Assembly: GCF_000328765.2 (NCBI RefSeq)
Contig: NC_019954.2
Coordinates: 1,492,501-1,556,500 of the forward strand
Direction: 5' to 3'
DNA length: 64,000 bases
Source of the DNA: Tepidanaerobacter acetatoxydans Re1
Lineage (GTDB): Bacteria > Bacillota > Thermosediminibacteria > Thermosediminibacterales > Tepidanaerobacteraceae
Made by a program: the position numbers and the translations under genes. Positions 45,762 through 52,203 of the stretch are shown piece by piece (within the stretch, counting starts at the first letter, position 1; each line of letters starts with the position of its first letter). The notes beneath the pieces are model-generated. The model was not told the origin of the DNA, did not search any database, and was given only the letters and a program-made list of their open reading frames with translations.

Positions 45762-45991
45762 CAAAAAGCCTTTCACCCTCTAAAGGACGAAAGACTCGCT
45801 TTCGCGGTACCACCTTAATTCCTATACCGGCACTTTAAGCTTTAACGGGCATAACCGTCTTCGGCTACTTAATTTTATTCACCGAAGCTGCTCCAGGGCG
45901 ACCTTCAAAGCTACTCCCGGAAGGCTTTCAGCCTTGACCTTCCTCTCTTTCTGGAAGATTACTTCTACTCCTCCCTATCAAAACATTCTTT
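45762..45991 (-). ncRNA. T-box riboswitch of valS
   Basis: The minus strand carries the T-box core AAGGTGGTACCGCG (45803-45816), followed by the terminator arms AGTCTTTC (45789-45796) and GAAAGGCT (45767-45774) and a T5 tract. Stem I has the AGTAGAAGTAA-type 5' motif. The likely specifier is GTC (45900-45902), a Val codon, in GAAGGTCGCC; this assignment is inferred. Uncharged tRNA-Val is expected to allow readthrough into valS-folC. Confidence 0.93.
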
Positions 45992-48987: not shown

Positions 48988-50541
48988 CTATATTTCTATA
49001 CCTATTATCTCATATAACTTTTTAATATCGATATTAGCCCTGATTATATCCGCCCAGCGATCATATTCAGCCTCTTTAAATTTATTAAAATCAAAAGATT
49101 TGGCATTGTTTGTGATAACACTTTCATCATGTTTAATATTTTTTAAAAAGTTTACGAATCTCATGGTAAAATCATGATTGTCAAATATTCCGTGAATAAA
49201 GGTTCCAAGGGTACGACCCGTTGCTGATATAAGGCCGTCTAATGAATTATCAGAGCAGTTATAGGTTTTTATAAAATTAATTTCTTTGCCTTGTTGTATA
49301 ATATTTCCAGAATATATGCGATAACCTTCTATTTCTGATCCGCTTAAAACATCTGCTGGAGCCGGAAGATTATCTGAAATTTTCCCTAACACACGTATAG
49401 AATCCTGTTGCTGTAGTTCTATGTGCACATCAAGCAAGCCTAATCCTTTTATGTTTTCCTTTATTCCAAAGTCCGAAGAAAAACTCAGGGTTTTTCCCAA
49501 CAAAGGATAACTGCTGCCCATACCCAAAATTACCACACCCGTTTTAGAAAGCTCCTGAATTTCTTTATCCCAACCTCTTGATTGAATAAATTCCATGCTC
49601 TCTTTGGGATTTTCTGATCCCGGAATTAAAACCATATCCGCATCGTCAATGGGACCATTGTATACATATGATAGCTGGATTCCCGGAAATTCACCTAATG
49701 GCGCAAAGTCAGTAAAATTTGTAATTCGAGGCAGACTTAAGACTTTTACCTTTAATTGGCTTTCTTTATCCATATCGGCATTGTCGCTTCTATCATACTT
49801 TTGCATCAACCGTTCTTTTTCCGATTGAGGAGAATCCTCCTCATCTATATAGATATCGGCATAAGGTACAACTCCTAAAACCGGCCGTTTTATTATATCC
49901 TCCAGCATTTCAAGACCTGGTTCAAGCAGCTTTAAATCTCCCCGAAATTTGTTTATTATAACGGCTTTTACCATGGCTTTTTCATTATCATTCAATAAAA
50001 GCATTGTTCCTGCCAATGATGCAAAAACCCCACCTCTGTCAATATCTCCTACAATAACTACTGGGGCATTAACTAATTCGGCCATACCCATATTGACGAT
50101 ATCTCTTTCGCGAAGATTTATTTCCGCAGGACTTCCAGCCCCCTCTATAACAATTATGTCATTATCCCGAGCCAACTCATCATAGCTTTCTTTTATCAGT
50201 TGCATCAGTTTTGGTTTGTATTCATGGTAGTCCATCGCTGAAAAGTTGCCAAAAGGTTTGCCTTTGACTATTACCTGACTATTTTTGTCCGAACGCGGTT
50301 TTAACAGTATTGGATTCATTATGACTGAAGGTTCTATACCGCATGCTTCAGCTTGGGTAGCTTGAGCTCTGCCCATCTCTAAGCCATCCCGGGTTATATA
50401 TGAATTTAATGCCATATTTTGGGATTTGAATGGCGCAACTTTAAATCCATCTTGCTTAAATAACCTGCAAAGTCCGGTAACTAATCGACTTTTTCCTACG
50501 GAAGAGCCAGTTCCTTGAATCATTATGCATTTAGCTGTCAT
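48988..50541 (-). CDS. cobQ: CobQ-like cobyric acid synthase with degenerate glutaminase domain
   Basis: A 517-residue protein. The N-terminal ATP-dependent amidoligase domain is intact (MIQGTGSSVGKS, PFKSQNMALNSYIT, GRAQATQAEAC, VIEGAGSPAEINL, DIDRGGVFASL). The C-terminal amidotransferase domain is abnormal: where CobQ has GICGGYQ with the nucleophilic Cys, this protein has GMGSSYP (Gly342), and the GYEIHMG motif reads GYRIYSG. His450 (GTFIHGIFDN) is kept. The family makes cobyric acid by amidating adenosylcobyrinic a,c-diamide with glutamine nitrogen. The ATG overlaps the sufBD stop by 4 nt. No other cobalamin gene is in the window. Confidence 0.88.
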   Translation of the reverse strand: MTAKCIMIQGTGSSVGKSRLVTGLCRLFKQDGFKVAPFKSQNMALNSYITRDGLEMGRAQATQAEACGIEPSVIMNPILLKPRSDKNSQVIVKGKPFGNFSAMDYHEYKPKLMQLIKESYDELARDNDIIVIEGAGSPAEINLRERDIVNMGMAELVNAPVVIVGDIDRGGVFASLAGTMLLLNDNEKAMVKAVIINKFRGDLKLLEPGLEMLEDIIKRPVLGVVPYADIYIDEEDSPQSEKERLMQKYDRSDNADMDKESQLKVKVLSLPRITNFTDFAPLGEFPGIQLSYVYNGPIDDADMVLIPGSENPKESMEFIQSRGWDKEIQELSKTGVVILGMGSSYPLLGKTLSFSSDFGIKENIKGLGLLDVHIELQQQDSIRVLGKISDNLPAPADVLSGSEIEGYRIYSGNIIQQGKEINFIKTYNCSDNSLDGLISATGRTLGTFIHGIFDNHDFTMRFVNFLKNIKHDESVITNNAKSFDFNKFKEAEYDRWADIIRANIDIKKLYEIIGIEI

Positions 50542-51461
50542 TGCAGAAAACCTCGTAGTATGACATCCTCAGCTTCTTCTTCAGAAAGACCCAGAGTCAT
50601 TAATTTTAGAAGCTGTTCTTCGGCTATTCTACCAATAGCAGCCTCGTGAGTCAATTGAGCATCTGGATGCTCTGCGGTAATAGCAGGCGTTGAGCTTATT
50701 TTGCCTTGATCCATTATGATAGAATCACATTCAACATGTCCCTTACTGCTGGCCCTGGCGATAACTATTGGCCGAAATACCTGCTTGGAATTATCTTTTG
50801 CAACCGAGCGAGATACAACTTTTGCATTGGAACCCCGACCATTAAGCTCTATTGTCATATCAGATACCGCTTCCTGATTTTGGTGGGTCAAAAGACGTTC
50901 GGTTATAATCAGGCTTGCCCCTTCGGCTAATTTAGCTTTTGTATCGCGGACAGTGCTATCAACACCTTTTATTTGCACAAGTTCCATTTCCGCCATAGAG
51001 TCTTGCTCCATCATGACAAGTGTTTGTGGGTTTAAAACCCTTTCACCGCTTCCTTCGCCTTCACCGTAGTGTTTTTCTAAATACCGCATTTTTGCACCCT
51101 TTTTAACAATTATTTCATGAATACCGTCATGCTGGGATTTTTTAGAGCCAGGATTATGAATTCCACAGCCGGCGACTACAGTTACATCAGCACCTTCACC
51201 TATGATGATTGTATTATATACGACATCCACCACTCCGGACATGGTTATCAAAACAGGAATGTGTACCGCCTCATTTTTAGTGCCTGGCGCAATTATGACA
51301 TCGATGCCGGGCTTGTCAGTTTTTGGGCGAACCTCAATATTGGCAGAAGAATGACGTATGATTCCCTCTCCATTCTTTCTGATATTAACAGCTCCTGATG
51401 GTATTTTATGCAAATCTGCAATATTTTTCAAAAGCTCATTTTCAATAGCATTCAATTTCAT
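50538..51461 (-). CDS. SufB/SufD-like Fe-S scaffold protein (minimal SUF/SMS type)
   Basis: A 307-residue SufBD protein, shorter than Bacillus SufB or SufD. It has the beta-helix core with VVAGCGIHNPGSKKSQHDGIHE, GRGSNAKVVSRSVAKDNS, HVECDSIIMDQGKISSTPAI and EHPDAQLTHEAAIGRI, matching the conserved SufBD C-terminal region. With SufC it would form an ATP-driven Fe-S assembly complex of the two-gene clostridial/archaeal kind. The start is ATG 51461, 8 nt after GGAGG; it overlaps sufC by 20 nt. Confidence 0.92.
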   Translation of the reverse strand: MKLNAIENELLKNIADLHKIPSGAVNIRKNGEGIIRHSSANIEVRPKTDKPGIDVIIAPGTKNEAVHIPVLITMSGVVDVVYNTIIIGEGADVTVVAGCGIHNPGSKKSQHDGIHEIIVKKGAKMRYLEKHYGEGEGSGERVLNPQTLVMMEQDSMAEMELVQIKGVDSTVRDTKAKLAEGASLIITERLLTHQNQEAVSDMTIELNGRGSNAKVVSRSVAKDNSKQVFRPIVIARASSKGHVECDSIIMDQGKISSTPAITAEHPDAQLTHEAAIGRIAEEQLLKLMTLGLSEEEAEDVILRGFLQ

Positions 51462-52179
51462 TATCATTACCTCCACAATTTGCCTGCCAGCAGCATCTTG
51501 AATCCTTTTGTATCAGTGGCAATATTTTATCCTTCGAACCTCTTTCGGCTATCTTGCCGTCGGCCAAAAGAATTATTTCATCCGCCAGTGATAAGACTCT
51601 TTCATGGTGCGTAATAACCACACTTGTTACATTGCCTTTTTTATGGTAGTTTCTAATTAGTTGCAGTAGGTTTTCAAAGCTCCAAAGGTCAACACCTGCT
51701 TCCGGTTCATCGTAGATTACTAATTTTGATGGTCTTGCAAGAACAGTGGCTAACTCAATCCTCTTCATCTCGCCGCCTGAAAGGCTTGCATCGCATTCTC
51801 TGTCAAGATAATCCTGAGGGCATAAACCTACTGCTCGAAGCATAGCCCTTAACGAGCTTTCGTCTGCAGATATTTTAAGCAGGTCTTTGATCTTCATACC
51901 CTTAAATCTGGGAGGATTTTGAAACGCATAACTGATGCCGACCTTGGCACGTTCGGTTATGCTTAGATTTGTTATATCCTCGCCATCAAAAATCAGTCGG
52001 CCTTTATCATTTTTATAAATACCCATAATGACTTTGGCTAGTGACGTTTTCCCGCCGCCATTTGGACCGGTCAAGGCATAAAACTTATTATTCTCCAACT
52101 CTAAATTTATATCTTCTAATATAGAAAAGTCCTCATGACCGTTTTTCAAGTGCAGGTAAACAGATTCGAGTTTTAACAT
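51442..52179 (-). CDS. sufC: Fe-S cluster assembly ATPase SufC
   Basis: A 245-residue ABC-type ATPase with Walker A TGPNGGGKTS, Q-loop YAFQNPPRFKGMKI, signature LSGGEMKRIELATVLA and Walker B LVIYDEPEAGVDLWS, all typical of SufC. The C-terminus carries an unusual Cys-containing tail (CCWQANCGGNDNEIEC) that overlaps the start of sufBD. Start ATG 52179 after AAGAGG. First gene of sufC-sufBD-cobQ. Confidence 0.94.
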   Translation of the reverse strand: MLKLESVYLHLKNGHEDFSILEDINLELENNKFYALTGPNGGGKTSLAKVIMGIYKNDKGRLIFDGEDITNLSITERAKVGISYAFQNPPRFKGMKIKDLLKISADESSLRAMLRAVGLCPQDYLDRECDASLSGGEMKRIELATVLARPSKLVIYDEPEAGVDLWSFENLLQLIRNYHKKGNVTSVVITHHERVLSLADEIILLADGKIAERGSKDKILPLIQKDSRCCWQANCGGNDNEIECY

Positions 52180-52203
52180 AATTCTCAACCTCTTTCCTTC
52201 CGT

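Follow-up and report, generated by a model that had tools for sequence, protein, structure and literature searches.

A cobyric acid synthase without its glutaminase nucleophile, and a probable lineage-wide switch from glutamine to ammonia in Tepidanaerobacter and related genera

Background

Glutamine is viewed as the near-universal amide donor, delivered via sealed ammonia tunnels, and the ATP-dependent amidotransferases of the families considered here generally accept ammonia in its place in vitro. CbiA makes the diamide that precedes the step catalysed by CobQ. The lineage to which Tepidanaerobacter belongs is known from ammonia-rich digesters.

A classical single-enzyme case is vertebrate carbamoyl phosphate synthetase 1 (CPS1), in which the glutaminase cysteine has been lost naturally (Ser294 in human), ammonia is used and the dead domain is structural (PMC4655335). 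Single-domain NAD synthetase shows that an ATP-dependent amidation can use ammonia in vivo, and the survey in the same paper found pyrG and guaA always fused to a glutaminase, the criterion being domain content rather than active-site residues (PMC3376133). Loss of glutamine synthetase has been published for mesophilic acetate oxidisers and for Blochmannia vafer (PMC4374699, PMC5924567, PMC5113046 and PMC3017870). According to PMC4374699, T. acetatoxydans can grow with ammonium concentrations as high as 1 M and has glutamate dehydrogenase, without glutamine synthetase or an ammonium transporter.

We analysed a stretch of 64,000 nucleotides of T. acetatoxydans Re1 (contig NC_019954.2, positions 1,492,501 to 1,556,500), referred to here as the window, in which a first-pass annotation had described a CobQ protein lacking its glutaminase nucleophile.

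The cobQ gene and its product

The features of the locus, in window coordinates, are as follows.

48988..50541, minus strand: cobQ/cbiP, cobyric acid synthase of 517 amino acids, single genomic copy (open reading frame; exceeds the cut-offs of NCBIfam NF001989 and TIGR00313)
49756..50541, minus strand: ATP-dependent amidoligase half, residues 1-262, motifs intact including GTGSSVGKS and DIDRGG (domain match, alignment)
49168..49752, minus strand: GATase_3 (glutaminase-like) domain without nucleophile, residues 264-458 (PF07685, 109 bits against a cut-off of 27)
49504..49524, minus strand: nucleophile elbow GMGSSYP, residues 340-346, canonically GICGGYQ (alignment)
49516..49518, minus strand: codon 342, GGC for Gly, at the catalytic Cys position (open reading frame, alignment)
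49192..49194, minus strand: codon 450, catalytic His kept (open reading frame, alignment)
49306..49326, minus strand: GYRIYSG, residues 406-412, drifted from canonical GYEIHMG (alignment)
49606..49626, minus strand: IPGSENP, residues 306-312, drifted from canonical IPGTKNT (alignment)
50538..52188, minus strand: genes for SufD-like and SufC-like proteins, immediately upstream of cobQ and given for context only (open reading frames, locus comparison)

The product matched the CobQ profiles over its full length (NF001989, 562.7 bits against 273; TIGR00313, 443.9 against 309.9), and it carries a CbiA-type P-loop amidoligase domain with conserved motifs as well as the GATase_3 domain. In match, domains, genomic place and the presence of the pathway it is like the canonical CobQ/CbiP of sister genera; it differs in having Gly for the catalytic Cys and in the drift of the GYEIHMG and PGTKNT motifs. 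The elbow stretch of the reading frame is VVILGMGSSYPLLGK. In the alignment Gly342 falls under a Cys that is invariant in canonical relatives, which bears out the nucleophile loss described in the first pass, and the drift of both motifs and the integrity of the amidoligase half and His450 proved to have been described correctly as well. The GATase_3 fold is thus recognised by profile and His450 is present, while the Cys of the G-x-C-x-G elbow is absent; judged by its sequence, the domain does not function as a glutaminase through the known mechanism. A search of the CobQ sequence against solved structures gave no match at E 0.01, and the AlphaFold model (mean pLDDT 60, mostly 30-50 in the GATase part) was too poor for placing Gly342. 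Elsewhere in the window, a T-box leader lies upstream of valS (45780-45990, minus strand; Rfam RF00230, 128 bits).

CobQ in related genomes

Across 22 genomes of the order, the nucleophile column of CobQ holds Gly in Re1 (G000), in G011 and G012 of the same genus, and in G003, G004, G005 and G006, and Cys in the others. G007, the earliest branch of the Cys-losing group, retains Cys, but its catalytic His is Asn. Since the Cys is also lost in the six other genomes, a sequencing error is excluded as the source of Gly342, and the alignment contained no alternative Cys elsewhere in the GATase domain that was conserved within the group and might be a relocated nucleophile.

The canonical cobQ of sister genera (GICGGYQ) occupies the same locus, between sufCD and a comEA-like gene, and the Cys-less gene is therefore an ordinary cobQ changed in place. 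The gene order leuS-sufC-sufD-cobQ-comEA is kept in most of the family. The drifted motifs of the GATase half, together with the position of cobQ beside sufCD and outside the cbi cluster, might suggest that CobQ was recruited to amidate a new substrate, a role raised in the first pass. This is most improbable given the canonical CobQ of sister genera at the same locus, the strong conservation of the amidoligase half, and the lack in Re1 of any other CobQ for the standard step; a search of its single-contig genome (2,761,252 bases) found no second cobQ.

The sufC/sufD-like genes at 50538-52188 pair with cobQ in most of the family and are missing from this place in G004. A second, canonical cobQ is present in G004, which has a canonical cbiA-cobQ pair (L072 26-2536, C9; L080 12717-14055, C15) besides a cobQ and a cbiA that both lack the Cys, the cbiA being of another lineage. 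In G005 (L017, L028, L005) a frameshift at about residue 376 splits cobQ, and four residues are deleted from the PyrG elbow, reflecting either decay or assembly error.

CbiA and the cobalamin pathway

The CbiA elbow reads YAEGGGLMYL, against canonical YAECGGLMYL, in G000, G011, G012, G006, G010 and G007. The CbiA of G004 belongs to a different lineage (37% identity) and has the same Cys to Gly replacement, which we take to be an independent event. With CobQ and CbiA both changed from Cys to Gly, both cobalamin amidotransferases are therefore without nucleophile.

A complete-looking cbiA-cbiJ cluster was found at about 486-498 kb in Re1, and cobU, cobD, cbiB, cobS and cobC are grouped at a separate locus, in a tally that leaves out cobT and the corrinoid adenosyltransferase. 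A cobalamin riboswitch accompanies each of the two clusters. This check of the pathway, proposed with the first-pass annotation, also makes a new amidation role for CobQ unlikely, the corrin-ring cluster, the late genes and both riboswitches being present.

Decay of a dispensable B12 pathway would be another way to account for the change in CobQ. PMC4374699 reports T. acetatoxydans cobalamin genes as partly missing, the glutaminase half of CobQ evolves faster than the amidoligase half, and cobalt transporter genes adjoining cbiA seem broken in Re1. The cbiA-cbiJ cluster, cobU, cobD, cbiB, cobS and the two riboswitches are nevertheless intact, dN/dS is far below 1, and enzymes that are not B12-specific, those of purine, pyrimidine and tryptophan synthesis, show the same change, so that decay is very improbable. 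In both G000 and G011, deletion seems to have truncated and fused the transporter genes concerned, cbiM, cbiQ and cbiO, which are intact in G012 (L064 3506-4482; L087 16469-19085). The partial lack of cobalamin genes published for this species is at odds with the near-complete set seen here (L097, L064).

Other amidotransferases

A search of the Re1 genome for class I GATases showed Gly at the nucleophile position of TrpG (GVGLGHQ), CTP synthase PyrG (GIGIGMQ) and GMP synthetase GuaA (AIGYGMQ), and the PurQ elbow, GIGNGFQ, has the same replacement. The Cys to Gly enzymes of Re1 are thus CobQ, CbiA, PyrG, GuaA, PurQ and TrpG, and the view of CobQ as an oddity of one enzyme gives way to a loss that is genome-wide and common to a clade. 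PurQ has Gly in all nine genomes of the group and PyrG in six (G007 keeps Cys with GMH for GMQ, and G005 is deleted there), as do all five group copies of GuaA that were read and TrpG in both group genomes encoding it. Every copy of these enzymes read from 13 relatives outside the group has Cys.

Other glutamine sites are altered as well. Every group PurF read keeps its N-terminal Cys and has Glu for the otherwise invariant Gly of the STTG glutamine loop, giving (S/T)(T/S/N)E. The GatA nucleophile Ser is Ala in G003 and G004, and its cis-Ser loop has a two-residue deletion in G003, G004 and G006; the Re1 GatA keeps the Lys-Ser-Ser residues and has an altered SSGYYD loop, which we take to bind glutamine. 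In G010 (C119; L247, 519-aa minus-strand open reading frame) a class II amidotransferase-like domain starts VSGIVAVF, where CGI would be expected.

Two proteins of Re1 retain the nucleophile: a gamma-glutamyl hydrolase-like (PuuD-like) protein (GICRGMQ) and GatD (AICGGYQ), which also retains its His. A 243-aa GATase_3 protein at 794 kb was considered as a stand-alone glutaminase for CobQ and ruled out, being this GatD, beside MurT and with its Cys intact.

It could be supposed that a separate cellular glutaminase (GatD, the PuuD-like hydrolase or some other enzyme) supplies ammonia to the Cys-less enzymes, glutamine remaining the source, and the retained Cys of the two proteins would fit this. 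The gatD gene adjoins MurT, however, as expected of a lipid II amidation pair; searches of Re1 for GATase_3 and class I GATase proteins brought up no spare member of either family; a single enzyme would need to serve six or more partners unrelated to one another; and most group genomes have no glutamine synthetase with which to make glutamine. We consider such a supply unlikely. For CobQ itself, nothing was found that could be the borrowed glutaminase proposed in the first pass: apart from CobQ, the GATase_3 proteins are CbiA, whose own Cys is lost, and GatD.

Missing genes

All nine group genomes have CarB and none has CarA, whereas the two co-occur outside the group. The pyr operon of Re1 is pyrB-pyrC-carB-pyrK-pyrD-pyrF-pyrE, without carA, and carB directly follows pyrC. 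Full-length GlmS and glutamine synthetase are each present in 13/13 relatives; within the group GlmS is absent from all nine genomes and glutamine synthetase from seven, the exceptions being G012 and G004. In place of GlmS, NagB working backwards may make glucosamine 6-phosphate. Five of the nine group assemblies are of MAG quality (82-89% complete), which makes absences from them weaker, and the case is carried by G000, G011 and G012 (99%) and by G004 (92%).

Both remaining glutamine synthetases look foreign or divergent. That of G012 shares 63-64% identity with the family enzyme, whose own copies are 93-96% identical to one another, and that of G004 is 41-48% identical to others. The G012 gene adjoins complete canonical GatA and GatB genes, and this GatA is 57-67% identical to every GatA compared, against the 74-86% shared by the order's canonical copies; the G012 synthetase looks re-acquired from outside the order. 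These gatA-gatB and glutamine synthetase genes (L234 6718-11325, C8) occur in a species whose other amidotransferases are Cys-less, and tRNA amidation may here have gone back to glutamine chemistry.

Phylogeny and selection

In a tree built on CarB and PurL together with the PyrG and GuaA synthetase parts, the nine group genomes were monophyletic with a bootstrap of 100, G007 splitting first and the remainder grouping at 82. The PurQ and CbiA Cys losses and the losses of CarA, GlmS and glutamine synthetase are therefore most simply placed in the stem of the group, with CobQ and PyrG following later.

All four Gly codons (GGT, GGC, GGA and GGG) are in use at the replaced residue, and Gly has therefore been maintained through silent change. 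The backbone of the nucleophile elbow residue is strained (PMC5871853), which would make Gly a likely replacement. Between G000 and G011, dN/dS was 0.08-0.20 for glutaminase parts and 0.04-0.07 for synthetase parts; for CobQ it was 0.047 in the amidoligase half and 0.196 in the second half. The glutaminase parts are relaxed but still constrained, and the domains are maintained.

Probable amidation with free ammonia

Of the three options raised for CobQ in the first pass, sequence comparison gives the best support to the use of free ammonia. CobQ is very probably an ammonia-dependent cobyric acid synthase whose dead glutaminase domain is kept as a scaffold, as one part of a lineage-wide switch. 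We propose that Tepidanaerobacter and four related genera descend from an ancestor that ceased to use glutamine as amide donor in most or all biosynthetic amidotransferases. This would have come about by three routes: replacement of the nucleophile Cys by Gly (CobQ, CbiA, PyrG, GuaA, PurQ, TrpG), the loss of whole proteins that were either separate glutaminase subunits or strictly dependent on glutamine (CarA, GlmS), and damage to other glutamine sites (the PurF loop, the GatA serine). CobQ would then amidate adenosylcobyrinic acid diamide with free ammonia, high external ammonium allowing synthetase halves to run without a glutaminase.

Use of ammonia in vivo by the amidotransferases of the lineage is accordingly a strong expectation, and we think it probable that a free-living lineage, through concerted loss of nucleophiles, glutaminase subunits and glutamine synthetase, gave up glutamine as donor in essentially every biosynthetic amidotransferase it has, in enzymes of unrelated folds, and uses free ammonia to make purines, pyrimidines, tryptophan, amino sugars and B12. 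An ammonia-rich habitat combined with glutamine sparing is a plausible driver, which we favour on balance: loss of glutamine synthetase would make glutamine scarce where ammonia is cheap, and a cell unable to make glutamine would profit from not spending it. Some glutamine is still required for protein. Some glutamine chemistry may also persist in the lineage, GatD keeping its Cys and His and PurF its N-terminal Cys, and MurT-GatD appears still to be glutamine-dependent.

The likeness to CPS1 lies in the loss of the nucleophile with retention of the domain, ammonia use being deduced here from sequence. CPS1, however, is one enzyme of an ammonia-detoxifying organ, whereas here at least six enzymes of one bacterium are affected, by Cys to Gly replacement. 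In NAD synthetase the glutaminase domain is absent, probably ancestrally, whereas here it is retained. Loss of the synthetase is common to this group and to the glutamine-synthetase-free bacteria described before, for which the accessible parts of the reports do not mention loss of glutaminase sites. Glutamine synthetase is likewise lacking in Syntrophaceticus schinkii and Clostridium ultunense. A literature search covering few subscription journals found no report of Tepidanaerobacter amidotransferases or of genome-wide glutaminase nucleophile loss. Precedents thus exist for single enzymes (CPS1, and NAD synthetase at family level), and the genome-wide state may be new.

Conclusions

Annotation pipelines still name the Cys-less proteins of this lineage as glutamine-hydrolysing. 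The sister genera that keep the Cys offer a natural before-and-after comparison for the seeming abandonment of glutamine, making testable what non-hydrolytic roles glutaminase domains have, whether tunnels open when the ammonia is external, and to what extent the chemistry of a habitat may reshape central nitrogen metabolism. Such a switch would help to explain why these acetate oxidisers do well in ammonia-rich biogas digesters, on which they may even depend.
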